From positions 1 to 27,274 of the IMG/VR virus record IMGVR_UViG_3300036761_004209: a stretch of DNA of 27,274 nucleotides; one strand, written 5' to 3'. The translations under genes and the position numbers were made by a program. Positions 3,004 to 19,451 of the stretch are shown piece by piece (within the stretch, counting starts at the first letter, position 1; each line of letters starts with the position of its first letter). Origin of the DNA: a virus. Below the pieces are notes generated by a model. The model was given only the letters and a program-made list of their open reading frames with translations, was not told the origin of the DNA and searched no databases.

Positions 3004-3330
3004 TCACGCCTCCACCACAACGGTGATGCTGCCGCGGCTCGGTGCCACGAGCAGGATGCTCCCCGGCAGCGTGACGCGGAAGTACGCATCGTAGGTCCCC
3101 GGCGTGTCGGTGTCGGTGCCCGACCAGTCGTACTGCACCACGCCGCCCGTGGCGGGACTGACCACGCTGGCGCTCAGGTTGTTCACCTTCACCGCGGCGG
3201 TGGCGCGGTTGACCATCCGGAGAACGGCCGTCGCGGCCGTCAGGTCCACCGCCGTCCCCGCCTGAGTGACGGTGACACGCAGGCTCGGGCGGAGCGCCCC
3301 CTGCTTGATCGTGAACTGCTCGGTCGTCAT
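3004..3330 (-). CDS. BppU-like Ig-fold baseplate/fibre protein
   Basis: The ATG at 3330 overlaps the stop of the repeat protein gene as ATGA, which fixes the start. The 108-residue protein is a single beta-sandwich unit. It follows the pattern of the BppU N-terminal domain: FTIKQGALRPSLRVTVT, then VDLTAATAVLRMVN, a Gly-Gly-Val-Val-Gln-Tyr-Asp-Trp strand (about 71-78), DTPGTYDAYFRV, and a closing SITVVVEA strand. Proteins with this domain are structural parts of siphovirus baseplates or fibre stalks. Stand-alone copies of about 100 residues downstream of fibre genes are common in phages of several phyla. The family assignment rests on motif spacing only. Confidence 0.72.
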   Translation of the reverse strand: MTTEQFTIKQGALRPSLRVTVTQAGTAVDLTAATAVLRMVNRATAAVKVNNLSASVVSPATGGVVQYDWSGTDTDTPGTYDAYFRVTLPGSILLVAPSRGSITVVVEA

Positions 3331-5450
3331 GGCAGGGTGACCTCCGTGTCCGTCCAAGCTGGCGTGGTGGCAGTCTCCTCCACCGCGAGTGTGGCATCGG
3401 CCGCGGTCCAGGCGAGCGCGATGGCAGTCTCTTCAACGGCGAGCGTGGCCTCGGCCGCGGTCCAGGCGAGCTGCACGAGCACCGGGTGCTGGACGGTCGC
3501 TTCGACGCCGAGGTAACCGGCGCCCGCCACCTGGAACGGGAGGGCGACGCTGCCGTTGGCGACAACTGCGACAGCGCCGGATCCAGAGACGGCCAGCGGC
3601 AGCGCGACGGCTCCTGCACCGCTGACAGCCACCGCGCCGGCACCGCTGACCCCCAGCGGTAGTGCAACGGCGGAGTCTCCGGTGATCGGGCTCCACGTGA
3701 CGGTTCCCGCCCCTATGCTGCTGAACGGCAGGGCGACGGCGGACGCGCCCGCGACCGCGACACTGCCCGCTCCCGCCACGGTGAGCGGCAGCGCGACAGA
3801 GGAGTCGCCCGTGACGACGGGGAATCCGACTGTGGCCGCACCCGAGACCGTGAGCGGCAGGCCGACCGCGCCGTCGGCAAGGACTGTCAGCGCCGCTGAT
3901 CCCGAGCAGGTGAACGGGAGAGCGGCGGTCCCCTGGCCCGCGATCGCCACGGCTCCGACGCCGGACACCCCCAGCGGCAGTACAACAGCGGAGTCTCCGG
4001 TAATCGGGCTCCAGGTGACAGCCCCCTCGCCCGAGCCGCTGAACGGCAGGGCGACGGTGGACGCGCCGGCGACCGCGACGCCGCCCGCACCCGAGGCGCC
4101 GAAGGGCAACGGGACACTGGAGGCCGCCGCCACCTGCATGGTGCCGGTTCCGGCGCTCCCGAAGGGCAGCGCAACGGCACTGTTCCCGAGCACGGCGACG
4201 ACCCCGGCGCCGCCGGCGCCGAAAGGCAGTGCAACGGTGGAGTCCCCGGTGATCGGGCTCCACGTGACAGTTCCCGCCCCTATGCTGCCGAACGGTAGGG
4301 CGACGGTGGACGTCGCGGCGAGCGCGACGCTGCCCGCACCCGAGGCGCCGAAGGGCAACGCAACACTGGAGGCCGCCACCACCTGCACGGTGCCGGTTCC
4401 AGCGCTCCCGAAGGGCAGCGCGACGGACCCAGCGGCGGCAATCGCGAGCACCACCGCAGCGGCCACAGCGAACGGGAGACTGACGCTGCTGTTGCCGGTG
4501 ACGCCTGCGGCCGCTGGATCCACTGTGAACGCCGGCGTCGCTACGATGGCCGCGCCCGAGGAGTTGCCCGAGGCGGGCACCGTGCCCGTGATCGTCTCCT
4601 GGGCCGTGATGTCGTACGTCGAGATCGCGGCAGCGGGGATCGTGAACGTGACTGTGTTGTCATCGGTGCGCACGACCTTCGTCAGGTCAGCGAGGAGCGC
4701 CGCCTTGACCACCGCATCCCAGCCCGCGGCCTCGCTCTGCGCCGAGTCGAGCCCGCTGACGTAGTCGGCGCGGACATCGGCGAACACCGTCATTCGGAAC
4801 GAGACGAGGATGCCGAGGCCCACGCCGTTCGAGGCCGTGCCGCCGTTGTCGGTGACGGTCAGGTTGCCCGTCGCACCGCCGGCGTGGGACAGCTGATACA
4901 GGAGGGCGTTCCCCGCGTCGTTCCCCGTCGTGCTTTCGTTCTGCGCGGCGAGGAGCCAGCTCGTCAGGGTGGCGGTGCCGTTCCAGTCGTTGCTCTTGGC
5001 CGCGATGATGAGCGCCAGGTCGCCGGCCGTGGGCGTGATACCCGTGATCGGGCCGACGTTATCGGCGCTGCTGTTCGTGCTGGTGGAGCCCGTGACACGC
5101 AGCCGGCCGTACTGGATCGCCGACGTGGGACGGAAACCGTGGATCCGCGAGAGCTGGGTATCGCCCGCGACGCCCGTGCCCGTCAGGGTCACCGTGGGCG
5201 CCGAATCGCCCGCGACGGCGATCCGGTAGTAGACGGCCAGGTTCGTCGTGCCGTTGAGCCAGCCGGTGTCGCCGCCGACGGACTCCCAGCCGGTCGGCTT
5301 GCTCGCCCGGCGGGAATCGGTCCCGCCGAAGTTGCTGACGACGAGGACGTGGAGGTCGCCCGGTGCCCAGCCCGCGGGTAGTCCAGGGGTGAGCGACGAG
5401 GCGTTGTTCCCGTTGCTCGCGGCGCCCGAGGCGTTGAAGGTCCAGCTCAT
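3327..5450 (-). CDS. Repeat-rich tail fibre / adhesin-like protein
   Basis: The start (ATG at 5450) overlaps the previous stop as ATGA; the frame is open further upstream but is then a shadow of the preceding gene. The 707 residues fall into four parts. Residues 1-219 are a beta-rich domain (APGDLHVLVVSN, PTGWESVGG, IHGFRP) of a type seen in phage tail proteins. Residues 220-318 are a second small domain (YVSGLDSAQSEAAGWD, YDITAQETITGTVPAS). Residues 320-651 are sixteen tandem units of 20 or 23 residues on the theme S-V-A-L-P-F-G-x-x-G-A-G. Residues 662-707 are two and a half copies of an 18-residue Trp-containing repeat. The low charge and regular Gly/Ala/Val pattern suggest an extended beta-structured fibre shaft. 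Exact function and receptor are unknown. Confidence 0.85.
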   Translation of the reverse strand: MSWTFNASGAASNGNNASSLTPGLPAGWAPGDLHVLVVSNFGGTDSRRASKPTGWESVGGDTGWLNGTTNLAVYYRIAVAGDSAPTVTLTGTGVAGDTQLSRIHGFRPTSAIQYGRLRVTGSTSTNSSADNVGPITGITPTAGDLALIIAAKSNDWNGTATLTSWLLAAQNESTTGNDAGNALLYQLSHAGGATGNLTVTDNGGTASNGVGLGILVSFRMTVFADVRADYVSGLDSAQSEAAGWDAVVKAALLADLTKVVRTDDNTVTFTIPAAAISTYDITAQETITGTVPASGNSSGAAIVATPAFTVDPAAAGVTGNSSVSLPFAVAAAVVLAIAAAGSVALPFGSAGTGTVQVVAASSVALPFGASGAGSVALAATSTVALPFGSIGAGTVTWSPITGDSTVALPFGAGGAGVVAVLGNSAVALPFGSAGTGTMQVAAASSVPLPFGASGAGGVAVAGASTVALPFSGSGEGAVTWSPITGDSAVVLPLGVSGVGAVAIAGQGTAALPFTCSGSAALTVLADGAVGLPLTVSGAATVGFPVVTGDSSVALPLTVAGAGSVAVAGASAVALPFSSIGAGTVTWSPITGDSAVALPLGVSGAGAVAVSGAGAVALPLAVSGSGAVAVVANGSVALPFQVAGAGYLGVEATVQHPVLVQLAWTAAEATLAVEETAIALAWTAADATLAVEETATTPAWTDTEVTLP
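3330..3467 (-). repeat. 18-residue C-terminal repeat, about 2.5 copies
   Basis: The protein ends with AWTAAEATLAVEETAIAL, AWTAADATLAVEETATTP and the half copy AWTDTEVTLP. The first two 54-bp copies are also close at the DNA level, so the duplication looks recent. The unit differs from the long array upstream and probably forms a short cap or coil at the fibre tip. Confidence 0.92.
3498..4493 (-). repeat. Sixteen tandem 20/23-residue units (60/69 bp) inside the fibre gene
   Basis: Units start at residues 320, 340, 360, 380, 403, 423, 443, 463, 486, 506, 526, 549, 569, 592, 612 and 632 of the encoded protein. Each carries [AV]-x-LP-[FL] at positions 5-8 and a Gly-rich turn at about 11-14. Units 4, 8 and 13 end in TWSPITG and unit 11 in the variant FPVVTG; these four are 23 residues, the others 20. 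Units 2-5 and 6-9 match each other position by position, which shows duplication in blocks of four. Confidence 0.95.
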
Positions 5451-6061
5451 GCCGGAATCACGGTGGCACCTGTGAGCGTCAGGACGACGGTCTTGTCGGT
5501 CGCCTTCAGGTTCACTTCCGTGATCCCCGCCGCTGCCGTGCCGGTCAGGGTGGAGAACGGGGCGTCGAGCGCCCGCCACGAATCGACTGTGTCGCCGGAC
5601 GCGACGAGGTTGATACCGGGAGTCTCCGCCGCGCTGTACGTCGCATCGGTGACGCCCGTGCCCTGCGCCACGCCGTTGTAGTACGCTCGGAGGAACGACC
5701 CGATGACTAGAATCCCGATGCGGTCGCCCGCCGCGAACGTCAGCCCCGTGGCGGCGGTCTCGATGAGGGTCACCACCCCACCGTCAACGCGGTTGATGTG
5801 TAGTGCCCCTGATTCCGCGACGACATCATACCCGTTGAACGAAACCGGCGAGCAGCGCACCAGCGGTGATATCCCGGTCGAGAAGCTGGCAATGACAACT
5901 TCGACGTACTGGTCCGCCGTCGCGGGCATCCCCGTCGTGTAGAGTGCGCCCACCGGGAATGACGACCCAACAAGCACCCCAGACACACGAGATGCGGCTC
6001 CCGCCAGCACCGCCCAGTTGCCGCTGAGTACCCCCGTGCCGTCGAAGGTGTCGAGTGACAT
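5447..6061 (-). CDS. Beta-sandwich (LamG/ConA-like) fibre-associated protein
   Basis: The 204-residue product begins with LDTFDGTGVLSGNWAVL and continues with strands such as YVEVVIASF, GYDVVAESGALHINRV, IGILVIGSFLRAYYNGV and TPGINLVASG, ending the first domain at about residue 166. This is the usual look of LamG-like jelly rolls in phage adhesins that bind glycans or other fibre subunits. The last 37 residues (GITEVNLKATDKTVVLTLTGATVIPA) look like the first half of a small Ig-like module. No clear Shine-Dalgarno sequence precedes the ATG, and the gene probably depends on coupling to the upstream gene, whose stop lies 7 bases away. Its stop overlaps the next ATG. Carbohydrate binding is inferred only. 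Confidence 0.72.
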   Translation of the reverse strand: MSLDTFDGTGVLSGNWAVLAGAASRVSGVLVGSSFPVGALYTTGMPATADQYVEVVIASFSTGISPLVRCSPVSFNGYDVVAESGALHINRVDGGVVTLIETAATGLTFAAGDRIGILVIGSFLRAYYNGVAQGTGVTDATYSAAETPGINLVASGDTVDSWRALDAPFSTLTGTAAAGITEVNLKATDKTVVLTLTGATVIPA

Positions 6062-6068
6062 CTGGTGT

Positions 6069-6452
6069 CTACAGCGACTTCGTGAACGTGGCCACCGTCA
6101 CCGTTTGCCCAGCGGCTATGTTGGTATTGTCGAGCGACATGTCGCCGCTGCCCTGGGCGACCGTACCTTCCTCGCGCTTGGTGTCCGCCGCGTTCTTGAG
6201 GCGATAGTGCGCGGCCGTGCCCGCGCCGGCGGCGGCCACGGACCAGGTGTTGGCCTTGGCCTTGCTGCCGCTGGCAGCCGCGGCCCACGGCGAGGCCGGG
6301 CTCGTGATCTCGGCCAGCAGGGACCCACCGGCGGCGTTCTCGGCGCCCGGGGGCGCGCCGGTCCGGACCTGGAGGAGCGAGCCCGCGGGGAAGTGCGTGT
6401 CATATGTGTCGAGCATCGCGTTCGCGAGCGTGTTGTTGAGGTCGACGGACAT
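6069..6452 (-). CDS. Small phage structural protein, fibre region (unknown role)
   Basis: The 127-residue product has the layout of a common uncharacterised phage protein: a short N-terminal helix (NNTLANAMLDTYDTHF), then LLQVRTGAPPGAENAA, LLAEITSPASPWAAAAS, a Lys/Ala stretch, HYRLKNAADTKREEGTV, and a closing strand pair (IAAGQTVTVATFTKSL). From memory these are encoded beside tail fibre genes and are assumed to be virion parts. The ATG has a strong Shine-Dalgarno sequence, AAGGAGGG, at 6460-6467 with a 7-base spacer, so it is probably translated independently and well. No enzymatic motif is present. Confidence 0.72.
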   Translation of the reverse strand: MSVDLNNTLANAMLDTYDTHFPAGSLLQVRTGAPPGAENAAGGSLLAEITSPASPWAAAASGSKAKANTWSVAAAGAGTAAHYRLKNAADTKREEGTVAQGSGDMSLDNTNIAAGQTVTVATFTKSL

Positions 6453-8416: not shown

Positions 8417-11341
8417 TCACGCAACCTCACAGGCGTGGGCGGTGAAGCCGGAGATCTCATCGGCCAGGGCGGTGTCGATCACGGCCCCCGCGCTGTCGAG
8501 CAACTCAGCCTTGTACTGGATCGTGGTGGGCTGGCCGCCCCTGCTCTCCACGAGGTAGTAGTAGCCCGGCGCCGTGTCCTGCTTGCTGGTGTTCGTCACC
8601 GGACTGGCCTCCGTGTGCCATGTCTCCCAGGGGTCGCCGTTCACCGAGCGCCAGAGCCGGACGTTGTGCGTGCCCGGCACGGCCCCGCCGTTGCTCGCGT
8701 CCGCAGTGGTCCAGCTACAGGTGTACTTGGCCTGATCGCCCGTGTCGCACCCGATGCCGTTGCTGTCGAGGGCCGCGCTGAGCGCCGTGAACCGCGGCGA
8801 CGCGGCACCACTCATCGTCCGGCTCGTGGTCACCCGGTCGCCGACGTTGCCGGCGCCGTCCACCGGGACGAGGATCACCTTCACGACGGCGGCGGGGGCG
8901 TAGCCCGCCTCGCTCCACTGCGTCCCGCCGACACCGGTCCCGCCGCTCATGCCGGTGAGCGGCGCGCCGAGCCGGCTCACGGCGCCACCGTCGGCCGCGA
9001 TCCAGATCGTGCCCACGAGCTGTGCTTCGTCGAGCACGCCGGCGACGTTGTTGTTCAGCGTGGGCCAGCCGTTCCCGCTGCCGTTCTTTTTCCGGTAGAG
9101 CCGCACGGAGGCAACGTCGTCATCCGGCGTCCACGTCACGATCGCCGTGCCGCCGGGGTTCTCGGTGATGGCGGCGGCCACCGAGGGGACGGTGTCCCGG
9201 TCGACGATCCAGGTCTGCGCGCGGCTGTAGCGCGAGCCGAGCCGCGCGTAGGCCGAGAGCTGGCGGTGGGTGGTCTCCAGGCGCGAGAGCACGAAGCTCA
9301 CCCCGTAGGCCGCCCACTCCCCCGTGCCGCCCACGAGGCCGAGGACTGGCACGGTGTCGCCCTCCTCCTGGACGATGTAGTAGATCCCATCCGCCGCGGG
9401 CCGGGCCGAGAGCGTGACGCGCACGTGGCCCGGATCGCCGGCCAAGTCCTCGAAGCGCGCCGAGACCGCCGGTTCGACGTCCGCCGCGGCGTTGGTCACC
9501 GGGCGCTGCCTCCGGGCCGGCCGCACCAGGGCGTCGGTCAGATCCTCGGCGCGGTTCGAGAGCTCGACGGCCGTCTCGAGCGCGGCGAAAACGTTCCGCT
9601 CGAGTGCGACGATGCGCGTGCTGATGTCGTCGCCCATGTCGGGGTCGAGGTAACGCACCGTGCCGCCGAGGACCAGCTGCTCGCCGGCGAACACCGCCGC
9701 ATCGAGCCGATAGCGATCGAGCAGCTCCACCCTGATGCTGACGGCCGGGTCCTTGCGCACGGCCAGGGCGTCATTCACCGCTTGCCAGAGGGCCGTCGCG
9801 CCGGCGCCGGCGTAGAAGGCCTCCTGGGCAGCCGTCTGCGTACACTGCGCCGCGTCCACGTAGAATGTCGCAGCGCCCCCATCGGCGACGATCCGGACCT
9901 GTGCGCTGGTGGCGCCGACGACCAAGAGGTCCGCGCCCTGGTAACCCAGCTCCTTCCAGACGGTAAGCTCCCCGGTCCAGGCCTTCGCCGCGGTCCCGTC
10001 CGGGTAGAGGCGGCCGGTGCTATCCACGAACTCGACCCGGACCTTGCCGGCGGTCAGCAGGACGGAGGCGAAGGCCGCGAAGTTGGGCTGGTCGCTCGTC
10101 GGACGGACGGTGAAGGCGCTGCAGACGAGGCCCTGGCCACCGGCGGTCGCGACGACCTTGCAGCTCTTCCCGCCGTAGCGGGCGTAGAGACTCGCCGTCT
10201 CCTCACTCGTCGTCGGACTGCCGACCTTGGACCACCCGGACGGCAGGCCGCTCCCGTAGGTCCCGTTGAGCTGGGGGTTCGGGACCAGGTTGCGGACCGG
10301 CGGGAGGTCGGTGCGATCCAAGACCGCCACGAGCAGGCCGTAGGTGGCCTTCGCCGCGGGCGCCTCGAGGTACGTGAGGTCGTCGCCGGCGCTGTTCCGC
10401 TCGAACCGGCCGACGTCGCCCACCGCGAGGCCCGTGACCGCGGCGAGCGTCACCTTCTGCGTCGCGGCGACGCTGTCGTTCACGAGGAGCCCGCTCGCGG
10501 CCCCGTCCTCGCGGAAGTAGAGCCCGTTCAGCTGGTCGTCGAAGCCGATCGGGCCGTCGGCCCCGTTCGGGTCCTCGAGCGTGACGTCGCTGCCGGCGAT
10601 CGCGCTGACGCGCCAGCGGGCCTCCGCAATCGTGAGCTTCCGGATCTCCTCGCCGGCCCCGCGGCCATAGATCCGCGTCGCGTGCTCGCTCGTCTCCCGG
10701 CTGCGGCGGAACCCGAGAACGTTCTTCCCGAGGCGCAGCGTCACCACGGCGGCGCTGGCCCCGATCGCAGTGACCAGGTCAACGTAGTAGCCCGTGGTGC
10801 CGTTCCGCCGGACCTGCAGCTCCGCGCCAGTGAGCTCGGCCAGGGCGCGCAGGGCCGCGAGGGGGGTGGTGGCGTCGAAGGCGAGGTCCACGGGGGCCGC
10901 GGGGTTCACGGTCCCGAGCGCGAAGTAGCTCGGTGCTGCCGGCAGGATGATCGTGCTCAGGAACGCGCTGGGCGTGAGACCCAGGAGCTCGAACTGCGGC
11001 CAGACGCTCCCATCGGCCTCCGTGCGCTCGATCATCCCGCGGCCCAGGTCCAGCAGCGGCGAGGCGGCGAGGACCTTGGCGGTGGCGCCAGCCTGCTCCT
11101 CCGGGATCCCCGTGATGCGCCACTCGTCGAAGGTGCCGTCCGCCCAAACGACCCGGAGTACTCGGTGCTCGCGGACCAGTGACCAGGCATCGGAGCGCCG
11201 CGGCAGTGTGAGGGTGAGCGTGTCGTCGCCGTCGAGCTGTCGGCGCTCGGGGAGGGCGATCGCATCCGCGATCGTCCCCAGCCGCGTCCCGCTCGCGCAG
11301 GCGAGGTCGCTCCAGATCTCGAGGCGGGCGAAGGCGGGCAT
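8417..11341 (-). CDS. Tail hub / tip protein (Tal or Gp37-like), multidomain
   Basis: The 974-residue protein is the large tail gene downstream of tape measure and distal tail protein, where siphoviruses encode the hub that plugs the tail and carries host-interaction domains. Residues about 1-330 resemble the Gp37/Tal hub family: ERRQLDGDDTLTLTLPR, VWADGTFDEWRITGI, LAELTGAELQVRRNG, and GFRRSRETSEHATRIYGRG. Residues about 349-497 look like a carbohydrate-binding jelly roll (RNLVPNPQLNGTYGSGLPSG, FYVDAAQ). After a helical linker (VALERNVFAALETAVELSNR) come Fn3-like domains, for example around TAIVTWTPDDDVASVRLYRKK, and a final beta domain with two Cys (NGIGCDTGDQAKYTCSW). I see no peptidase motif. 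The ATG is 6 bases beyond the stop of the CxxC gene. Confidence 0.85.
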   Translation of the reverse strand: MPAFARLEIWSDLACASGTRLGTIADAIALPERRQLDGDDTLTLTLPRRSDAWSLVREHRVLRVVWADGTFDEWRITGIPEEQAGATAKVLAASPLLDLGRGMIERTEADGSVWPQFELLGLTPSAFLSTIILPAAPSYFALGTVNPAAPVDLAFDATTPLAALRALAELTGAELQVRRNGTTGYYVDLVTAIGASAAVVTLRLGKNVLGFRRSRETSEHATRIYGRGAGEEIRKLTIAEARWRVSAIAGSDVTLEDPNGADGPIGFDDQLNGLYFREDGAASGLLVNDSVAATQKVTLAAVTGLAVGDVGRFERNSAGDDLTYLEAPAAKATYGLLVAVLDRTDLPPVRNLVPNPQLNGTYGSGLPSGWSKVGSPTTSEETASLYARYGGKSCKVVATAGGQGLVCSAFTVRPTSDQPNFAAFASVLLTAGKVRVEFVDSTGRLYPDGTAAKAWTGELTVWKELGYQGADLLVVGATSAQVRIVADGGAATFYVDAAQCTQTAAQEAFYAGAGATALWQAVNDALAVRKDPAVSIRVELLDRYRLDAAVFAGEQLVLGGTVRYLDPDMGDDISTRIVALERNVFAALETAVELSNRAEDLTDALVRPARRQRPVTNAAADVEPAVSARFEDLAGDPGHVRVTLSARPAADGIYYIVQEEGDTVPVLGLVGGTGEWAAYGVSFVLSRLETTHRQLSAYARLGSRYSRAQTWIVDRDTVPSVAAAITENPGGTAIVTWTPDDDVASVRLYRKKNGSGNGWPTLNNNVAGVLDEAQLVGTIWIAADGGAVSRLGAPLTGMSGGTGVGGTQWSEAGYAPAAVVKVILVPVDGAGNVGDRVTTSRTMSGAASPRFTALSAALDSNGIGCDTGDQAKYTCSWTTADASNGGAVPGTHNVRLWRSVNGDPWETWHTEASPVTNTSKQDTAPGYYYLVESRGGQPTTIQYKAELLDSAGAVIDTALADEISGFTAHACEVA

Positions 11342-17747: not shown

Positions 17748-18494
17748 CTACTGCCAGCTGAGGATCAGGATGCCGGACGTCGGCCGGCTCTCGACCGGCG
17801 TGACGAACTCGTCGCCGCCCAGCTTGTAGCGGCTCTTCAGCGCCTTCGACCAGTCGATCTCGACGCCCCATGCCTGGACCTCGACGTTGGTCAGGGTGTC
17901 GTGCAGCACCCCGGTCCAGTACAGCCACTGGTCGACATCGAGCCCGAGCTTGGTGCCGTCGATGAACAGCCGGCGCGGATCCACCGACGTCGAGGTGCCG
18001 GCGACCTCGCTCTCCTTCATCCCCAGGGAGAACGCGAGGTTCTCCTGGTTGAAGTTCTTGAGCCCGAACTTGAGGATCGGCGAGAAGTGCTCGCCGTTCA
18101 GGCCGAAGAACAGGCGCCGCGTGCCGGCGAAGAGCGCCGTCATGCTGGCCTCGAGGTCGGTGTCGACCCCGTCGTCCGTGGTCGGGCCGAGGTTCGTCTT
18201 CTGCTGCTCGACGCAGGCCACGCCCGAGAGGTGCGCCTTCTGCACCGGATACCGCGGGGTGACGACGAGCGTCGCGACCGAGGCCACGACGCAGATCTCG
18301 CTGTCGCTGCCGGTGTCGAGCCGCACGGTCACGCCGGCCGTGAGGCCGGTCGCCGAGGCGACGGCGAACGTCGCCCCGCCGGCCGCGACGTCGGCCGTGA
18401 TCGTGGTGGCGTTGCCGGCGGTCTTGTTCCGGCCCACTCCGACCTGGCTGAGCTGCGACCAGAGCTGTGCATTGCTGGTGCCACGTGCCATCAT
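17748..18494 (-). CDS. Major tail (tube) protein
   Basis: The 248-residue product precedes the chaperone-position and tape measure genes, as major tail proteins do. It is beta-rich with a loop-like N-terminus (TSNAQLWSQLSQVGVGRNK), an inserted domain of Val/Thr/Ala strands (about 30-90), and a C-terminal section with FFGLNGEHFSPILKFGLKNF, VDPRRLFIDGTKLGLDVDQW and VEVQAWGVEIDWSKALK. It should form stacked hexameric rings around the tape measure. Two tandem ATGs (18494 and 18491) are possible starts; GAGGGGG is better spaced for the second, a one-residue difference. Its stop is 9 bases before the next GTG. Confidence 0.82.
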   Translation of the reverse strand: MMARGTSNAQLWSQLSQVGVGRNKTAGNATTITADVAAGGATFAVASATGLTAGVTVRLDTGSDSEICVVASVATLVVTPRYPVQKAHLSGVACVEQQKTNLGPTTDDGVDTDLEASMTALFAGTRRLFFGLNGEHFSPILKFGLKNFNQENLAFSLGMKESEVAGTSTSVDPRRLFIDGTKLGLDVDQWLYWTGVLHDTLTNVEVQAWGVEIDWSKALKSRYKLGGDEFVTPVESRPTSGILILSWQ

Positions 18495-18507
18495 TTCCCC
18501 CTCTCGC

Positions 18508-18951
18508 CTAGGCGAGCTTCACGTTGAACCGCACCTCGCCGTCGAGGCGAGAGACGCCCAGCTCGTGGGCCGCGAGATCCGCGACGCCCTCGCGCACGTG
18601 CCAGGGCAAGAGCGGGGCGGCGTCTACCCCGCGTGCTACGAATGCCGGCTGCGCCAGGATGTCCATCGCGCGCTTGAGAAGGTCCTCGCAGCGCGCCTCG
18701 GCCCCCGTCGTATCGTCAGCCACGGCGGTGAGCTGGAGCTGCGGCTCCCAGTGCTCGCCTGCCTGGCCGGTGCGGTGCTCGTCCACGATCAGGAACCCCA
18801 GCGCCGGCAGCGGGACATCCGGTAGGTGGCGCCAGCCGACGCAGAGCTTCGTCGTCCGGTTGCACAGCGTCCGAATCGTGGCGTCGGCCGTCACGATCGC
18901 GACGAGAGCCTGCCGGAAGGTCTTCACGGCGTCCTCTGCTGCTGGCGCCAC
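18508..18951 (-). CDS. Tail terminator / tail completion protein
   Basis: The 147-residue protein has the form of the DUF3168/gpU-like terminator that caps the tail tube and contacts the head: an N-terminal helix (EDAVKTFRQALVAIVTADATI), the segment CVGWRHLPDVPLPALGFLIVD, then EPQLQLTAVADDTTGAEARCEDLLKRAM (about 69-96, cited in part) where a strand is followed by the typical helix, and a closing strand LDGEVRFNVKLA. It follows the gp10-like gene with a 28-base overlap, a normal order. The call rests on pattern and order. Confidence 0.78.
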   Translation of the reverse strand: MAPAAEDAVKTFRQALVAIVTADATIRTLCNRTTKLCVGWRHLPDVPLPALGFLIVDEHRTGQAGEHWEPQLQLTAVADDTTGAEARCEDLLKRAMDILAQPAFVARGVDAAPLLPWHVREGVADLAAHELGVSRLDGEVRFNVKLA

Positions 18952-19451
18952 CGGAAGGCCAGCCCGCGTTCCTTCGCCGAGAGCCGACCGCGGACCTTGA
19001 GCTTGGCCACGAGCACGGTGGTCATCGCCCCCTTCTCCTGCTCGTAGCTGGGCCGGAAGAACGGGTGCGGGAGAATCCCGCCGGCCTTCCCGCGGGCGAA
19101 GAATCCGAACTCCTCCGCCGGCGCGCCCGGATCCGTCGTGAAGACGCGCACCTTCATCCGGCGACGAAGCGCGTGGACCGCGCGGCCCTCGACGATCCGC
19201 ACCGCGATCGAGCCCTGCAGCTCGCCGCGCTGGCGCGCCGGCGGGGCGCCGGGTGCGGCCGCGCGCTGCTTCCGCCCACCGGCCCGGTAGAGCGTCCCGG
19301 ATCCGCTGCCCCCCAGGGCCTGCCGGATCCGCCCCGCGAGCCGCTCGCCGCAGGCGACGATGTCGTCGACGCCGACCAACTGATTGACCAGCGTGCTCGG
19401 ATCCGTGAGTCGCGACGTGCCGCGGGCCAGGGCAAGCAGGTTGACGGCCAT
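18924..19451 (-). CDS. HK97 gp10-like head-tail joining protein
   Basis: The start at 19451 shares one base with the previous stop (TGATG), giving 175 residues; a longer upstream frame is a shadow. Family hallmarks are the segment APGAPPARQRGELQGSI (about 66-82), matching the 'APG-PPA-tG-L-SI' pattern of HK97 gp10-family proteins, and EFGFFARGKAGGILPHPFFRP (about 114-134, cited in part) with the conserved HPFFRP at 129-134, followed by a basic C-terminus. These proteins act at the head-tail junction or in tail completion. The N-terminal helix contains the expected LVNQLVGVDDIVACGERLAG. Confidence 0.85.
   Translation of the reverse strand: MAVNLLALARGTSRLTDPSTLVNQLVGVDDIVACGERLAGRIRQALGGSGSGTLYRAGGRKQRAAAPGAPPARQRGELQGSIAVRIVEGRAVHALRRRMKVRVFTTDPGAPAEEFGFFARGKAGGILPHPFFRPSYEQEKGAMTTVLVAKLKVRGRLSAKERGLAFRWRQQQRTP

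Follow-up and report, generated by a model that had tools for sequence, protein, structure and literature searches.

The window analysed here is a 27,274-base virus record from IMG/VR with a G+C content of 70.5%, and it raises a simple question: what is the long tandem array encoded near its tail and lysis genes for, how did it arise, and how is the protein that bears it fastened to the particle? The record carries an HK97-type capsid gene and a terminase with phiC31-type phages among its best phage matches; its tail and lysis genes, a GH108 endolysin among them, lie on the minus strand. The array protein belongs to an uncultured HK97-type tailed phage. Along the minus strand one meets a tail protein with a Prophage_tail endopeptidase domain (8417-11341; PF06605, 4.5e-16), a virion structural protein (6069-6452; phrog_3758, 1.6e-19), a 204-residue protein with a virion structural match (5447-6061; phrog_2804, 4.3e-5), the 707-residue array-bearing fibre protein (3327-5450) and a protein with a BppU_N domain (3004-3330; PF10651, 24.3 bits against a cut-off of 23.1). 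The fibre gene starts with an ATG at 5450 that overlaps the upstream stop, and its own stop overlaps the ATG of the BppU_N gene. On the plus strand, opposite to the structural genes, 201-1184 encode a DEDDh exonuclease-like protein, possibly in the host flank of a prophage or possibly a phage gene. Searches with the tail protein found no relatives of this phage in genomes or phage records. The sole viral contig related through it (L004) is distant (29%), and carries a different array of ~14-residue LPxEW-type units at 18428-19288, in its late structural region.

Our main reading, to which we assign a probability of roughly 0.6, is that the array is the exchangeable shaft of a virion fibre protein and that it grew by old duplications of blocks. 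The protein would consist of an N-terminal beta-rich domain (domain D, residues 1-227; 4770-5450, minus strand), one half of an Ig-like anchor module (the second half, residues 228-316; 4503-4769, minus strand) and a C-terminal array of sixteen units (residues 317-652; 3495-4502, minus strand), the array serving as a spacer or shaft between the particle and the C-terminal end. We infer that it is a virion component and that its units stack as a shaft.

The units are recognized by their LP[FL] motif, with successive spacings of 20, 20, 20, 23, 20, 20, 20, 23, 20, 20, 23, 20, 23, 20 and 20 residues. L9 and P10 are invariant in 16/16 units, and V7 and G15 are present in 15/16. Units 4, 8 and 13 end in WSP followed by ITGDS (extensions at 4254-4262, 4005-4013 and 3687-3695, minus strand), and unit 11 has GFPV followed by VTGDS (a variant three-residue extension, FPV, at 3816-3824, minus strand). 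An earlier note on this DNA had described a repeat fibre-like protein with sixteen 20-residue units, extended to 23 at units 4, 8 and 13 and in variant form at unit 11, and all of this is confirmed; it placed the repeat at 3498-4493, and the true span is 3495-4502.

The array has a higher-order structure. Units 2-5 (4194-4442, minus strand) and units 6-9 (3945-4193, minus strand) align without a gap over 249/249 nucleotides at 79.1% nucleotide and 69.9% amino acid identity, against a mean of 57.9% nucleotide identity over all pairs of units. The best block-of-four score was matched in 0.2% of 20,000 permutations of the unit order (p=0.002), and Tandem Repeats Finder (TRF) independently reports a period of 249 with 2.0 copies. 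That these units align as whole blocks, and that the array grew block by block, had both been proposed from the sequence and hold up under these tests. Two further features were absent from that account: units 12-14 (3627-3815, minus strand) are a third, partial copy resembling units 3-5 and 7-9, with units 13-14 sharing 81% nucleotide identity both with units 8-9 and with units 4-5, and the last 55 residues of the protein hold another short tandem repeat with an 18-residue (54 bp) unit (3368-3471, minus strand; TRF, 1.9 copies, 90% matches). Blocks of four (249 bp) would have been duplicated, followed by partial blocks, all long ago, and the array would now be kept rather than reshuffled.

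Is the length of such an array readily variable? The earlier note suggested that the array grew by unequal exchange of blocks into a shaft of variable length, plausibly a host-range or display mechanism; put more strongly, the number of units would change readily and so tune host range or display. The block duplication on which this idea builds is well supported, and some exchange or conversion does appear more recent: units 3 and 7 are 93% identical, with a 29-nt exact match that is the longest exact repeat left, and the copies of the C-terminal 54-bp repeat are 90% alike. The near-identity of units 3 and 7 may reflect later conversion. However, the NG86 dS between blocks is 0.37-0.58, and the block duplications are therefore old. 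Moreover, among array-bearing homologues the single pair that can be compared at a moderate distance (L066 and L067, 63% identical over 998 aligned residues) shows no gap of at least five residues within the arrays; the more distant pair L034 and L035 (43% identity) shows unit-sized gaps of 20, 21 and 44 residues. With the block copies old and the L066 and L067 arrays equal in length, array length seems to change slowly, over long evolutionary distances rather than readily. We therefore consider a readily length-variable adhesin improbable on a comparison of arrays from homologues none of which is close to the window phage.

The 20-residue unit itself has no match over cut-off in Pfam, PHROGs, NCBIfam or PDB sequences, whether searched as the whole protein or as a three-unit profile; this rules out a known repeat family among these collections and agrees with the earlier note, which did not recognise the unit as a named family. 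We scanned IMG/VR and GTDB genomes with degenerate DNA patterns for two successive LPF-type units with their conserved residues at 20-residue spacing and found 0 matches there; a looser version of the two-unit pattern picks up six sites in the window itself. The single match of a one-unit pattern elsewhere is spurious, running antisense to an unrelated small gene. In sequence the window repeat is a new type, while in kind it is familiar, a fibre-shaft repeat.

The stretch of ~90 residues directly before the array proved far more widespread. Used together with the fibre N-terminal part as a first query, it matched two viral contigs; as an alignment query on its own it matched 24 and then 98 loci, of which the best 80 of 98 were kept. 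Our survey of it covers 86 IMG/VR loci, of which some share a contig. Three module queries against 50,697 phage records and one against plasmids gave no match, within the limits set by low-complexity filtering and the sensitivity of tblastn, and the module matches neither a Pfam family above its cut-off nor a PDB sequence. The second half in the window fits the family pattern GLDSAQSEAxGWDAxV ... VRTSDTVVTITL ... YDITAQETITVTVP, is 46-60% identical to its counterparts elsewhere in the family, and stands at the 4th percentile of fused-copy scores. The first half sits in the upstream gene, whose product ends in LTGTAAAGITEVNLKATDKTVVLTLTGATVIPA followed by the stop (5450-5548, minus strand). It fits the pattern TGTxTAxITEADIVxGGKTIIITLTGDT, shares 58% identity over 33 residues with L066 (E 7e-8) and scores at the 2nd percentile of fused copies, yet far above shuffled sequences.

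What follows the module differs widely between phages: past it the protein continues for at most 25 residues in 30/86 loci and for more than 100 in 46/86. The arrays it bears mostly have a period of 20 (L039, L043, L046, L066, L067, L070), 21 (L010, L013, L034, L035) or 22 (L026, L058, L090, L095) residues, with exceptions at 12, 14, 18 and 24. The window array is of the LPF type; those of L033 (24 units), L043, L066, L067 and L070 are of a GxxxVxxxG type, L039 has the unit AGTSGMTSTNYKASxDTL, L013 has GTVARTNxxDTSxVxGK, with occasional units two to three residues longer, and L034 and L035 have DSASVSES. In L026, APPVADTVVTAFAPSIASGV arrays lie on both sides of the module, and still other array types occur. 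The arrays of L033/L046, L066, L067, L070, L013 and L026 thus share the anchor and a similar period (20-22 residues) with the window, but have no demonstrable sequence relation to its units: profile comparisons of the window array with those of L026, L013 and L033, and with a pooled GxxxVxxxG profile, are no better than column-shuffled controls (p 0.39 and 0.76). A G-x3-V-x3-G-x-S spacing common to the window and L033 is for the same reason mere resemblance. Since the same module carries sequence-unrelated arrays in other phages, the module is a chassis and the shafts behave as exchangeable cassettes.

The module runs uninterrupted through each of the 47 distinct sequences that make up the alignment. 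In seven loci, namely the window, L026, L033, L061, L066, L067 and L095, it is split between two open reading frames at an identical point: the first half is the C-terminus of the upstream frame, with a stop 7-8 residues past a core strand, and the second half lies on a downstream frame, which is the neighbouring one in most loci but is separated by 0.9-1.5 kb in L033 and L026. The second-half protein carries an array in 6/7 split loci, L061 being the exception. First halves of L026, L033, L066 and L067 score as high as fused copies, and those of the window and L061 fall in the low tail; L095 was misaligned and left out of this scoring. Three other loci (L002, L013, L014) keep a single chain with a domain inserted at the split point inside the Ig-like module, and domain D of the window stands where these have their insert; a BLAST comparison of domain D with the N-terminus of L066 gave no match. 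Loci whose module is not simply fused carry arrays more often than the others (12/22 against 10/61, Fisher p 0.0013); this count includes loci that are not independent of one another, and its pattern misclassed the second module of L066 as fused.

How are the two halves expressed? The fibre ATG at 5450 is without a Shine-Dalgarno sequence, whereas the BppU_N gene is preceded by a clear GGAGGT, which suggests that translation of the fibre is coupled to that of the upstream gene. A programmed frameshift joining the two was considered and rejected, as no slippery sequence is seen at GTGATTCCGGCATGAGC; in L061 and L066 the ATG directly follows the stop in the same frame. With no slippery sequence seen and no Shine-Dalgarno before the fibre ATG, we prefer termination-reinitiation. 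An assembly indel as the source of the split is possible for the window alone, and fails for L026, L033, L061 and L066.

The fused module, modelled with AlphaFold2 from the 47-sequence alignment, is confidently predicted to be mostly beta (pLDDT 91.9, pTM 0.82); its first half contributes strands 12-17 and 34-40, and its second half most of the others. Foldseek finds mainly Ig-like neighbours for it, with weak scores (best PDB E 3.7e-3, TM <0.5, none with E <=0.001), and the Ig-like fold is accordingly a putative one. One structural protein would then end in the first two strands and the shaft protein would contain the remainder, the two together making up one domain. We infer that the halves dock in trans, the circumstantial evidence being a split that recurs at one point in seven loci. 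The wider picture, in which uncultured phages mount exchangeable shafts through an Ig-like domain divided over two proteins whose halves snap together, is a tentative one, and we hold it to be rather less probable than its opposite.

Where on the particle would the shaft stand, and is it a shaft at all? The setting is structural: phrog_3758 and phrog_2804 matches, an HK97 capsid, a terminase, a tail endopeptidase, a GH108 endolysin and a BppU_N neighbour. In other phages the gene next to the module gene is portal-like or head-tail connector-like, and terminase-like in L002 (all judged by eye); module genes adjoining such genes fit a structural role. The same neighbours lend themselves to a head fibre or a capsid decoration protein, with the same shaft at another place on the particle, and phrog_3758 and phrog_2804 are both filed under head and packaging. 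The window gene, however, sits at the tail and lysis end: the tail endopeptidase gene precedes it by ~3 kb and the BppU_N gene directly follows it. It is through BppU N-terminal domains that receptor-binding components are fastened to Dit or to tail-tube proteins (PMC7291167). With tail and lysis genes nearby, a BppU_N gene after it and a tail endopeptidase gene upstream, a fibre at the tail tip is the likelier arrangement and a place on the head is unlikely, if a serious alternative. We found no close homologue whose place in the virion is known, and no match among cultured phages. The gene after the L033 array gene looks like BppU_N by eye, but Pfam gives no BppU_N match for it and BLAST shows no similarity between it and the gene of the window.

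That the array might instead be low-complexity filler, largely disordered or elastin- or silk-like and devoid of a shaft fold, is suggested by its composition: A/G/V/S/T/L/I/P make up 90% of its 336 residues, Lys and Arg are absent and Asp/Glu number seven. AlphaFold2, run on the single sequence, also models the whole protein poorly (mean pLDDT 46.7, array about 49-67). A good monomer model would prove little, since AlphaFold2 makes confident beta-solenoids from random 20-residue repeats (PMC11795689). Such filler is hard to reconcile with an LP pair that is invariant, and V7 and G15 that are nearly so, across sixteen units, with dN below dS in every block comparison (units 3 versus 7 alone excepted), and with unrelated arrays on the same module that cluster at periods of 20-22. 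We regard it as improbable, and return to the shaft: each unit probably forms two short beta strands.

Among known systems, the upper baseplate proteins BppU and BppA of the lactococcal phages TP901-1 and Tuc2009 (PF10651 is the BppU N-terminus) are brought to mind by the very next gene of the window, which encodes BppU_N. In Tuc2009, BppA domain 2 and an extension of BppU make up a titin-like domain (PMC7291167), a link between two neighbouring gene products that is solved there and proposed here. Unlike in the window, no long tandem array is described in the cited passage, and no sequence similarity of the anchor module to BppA or BppU has been shown. Ig-like domains on virion proteins of tailed phages, some as out-of-frame extensions (PMC5009743, citing Fraser et al. 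2006), are similarly mobile, found on varied structural proteins and sometimes out of frame with the neighbour; the split of the window, in contrast, falls inside the domain and not before it, and the anchor module lacks both a Pfam match above threshold and a PDB sequence match, its fold matches being weak. SWM_repeat (PF13753) weakly matches the first half of the module (E 0.0036, 17.9 bits), but this is below the curated cut-off of 27 bits, and 0/47 fused modules match.

More interesting than the repeat itself is an anchor family with exchangeable arrays and a split that recurs. One module, which belongs to no Pfam family and has no match in the cultured-phage records, bears many unrelated arrays of near-equal period, so that the sequence of the shaft is replaceable without loss of anchor or period. 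In its split form the module suggests how a phage might fix a fibre to its particle, a mechanism open to direct test and with a counterpart in the solved BppA/BppU link; it would also help to annotate a class of nameless repeat proteins in environmental phages.

The module also occurs in other arrangements. L022, L023 and L025 have it whole in two or three tandem copies per protein, and in L047 serine/proline-rich SESASPSASPS repeats flank it on both sides. In L041, L042 and L049 it is followed by 24-residue repeats, which we take to resemble BspA-type leucine-rich repeats. Finally, ~2.4 kb before the array gene of L033, positions 2127-2561 match PF23140 (Podophage GP4 fiber I protein gp80).
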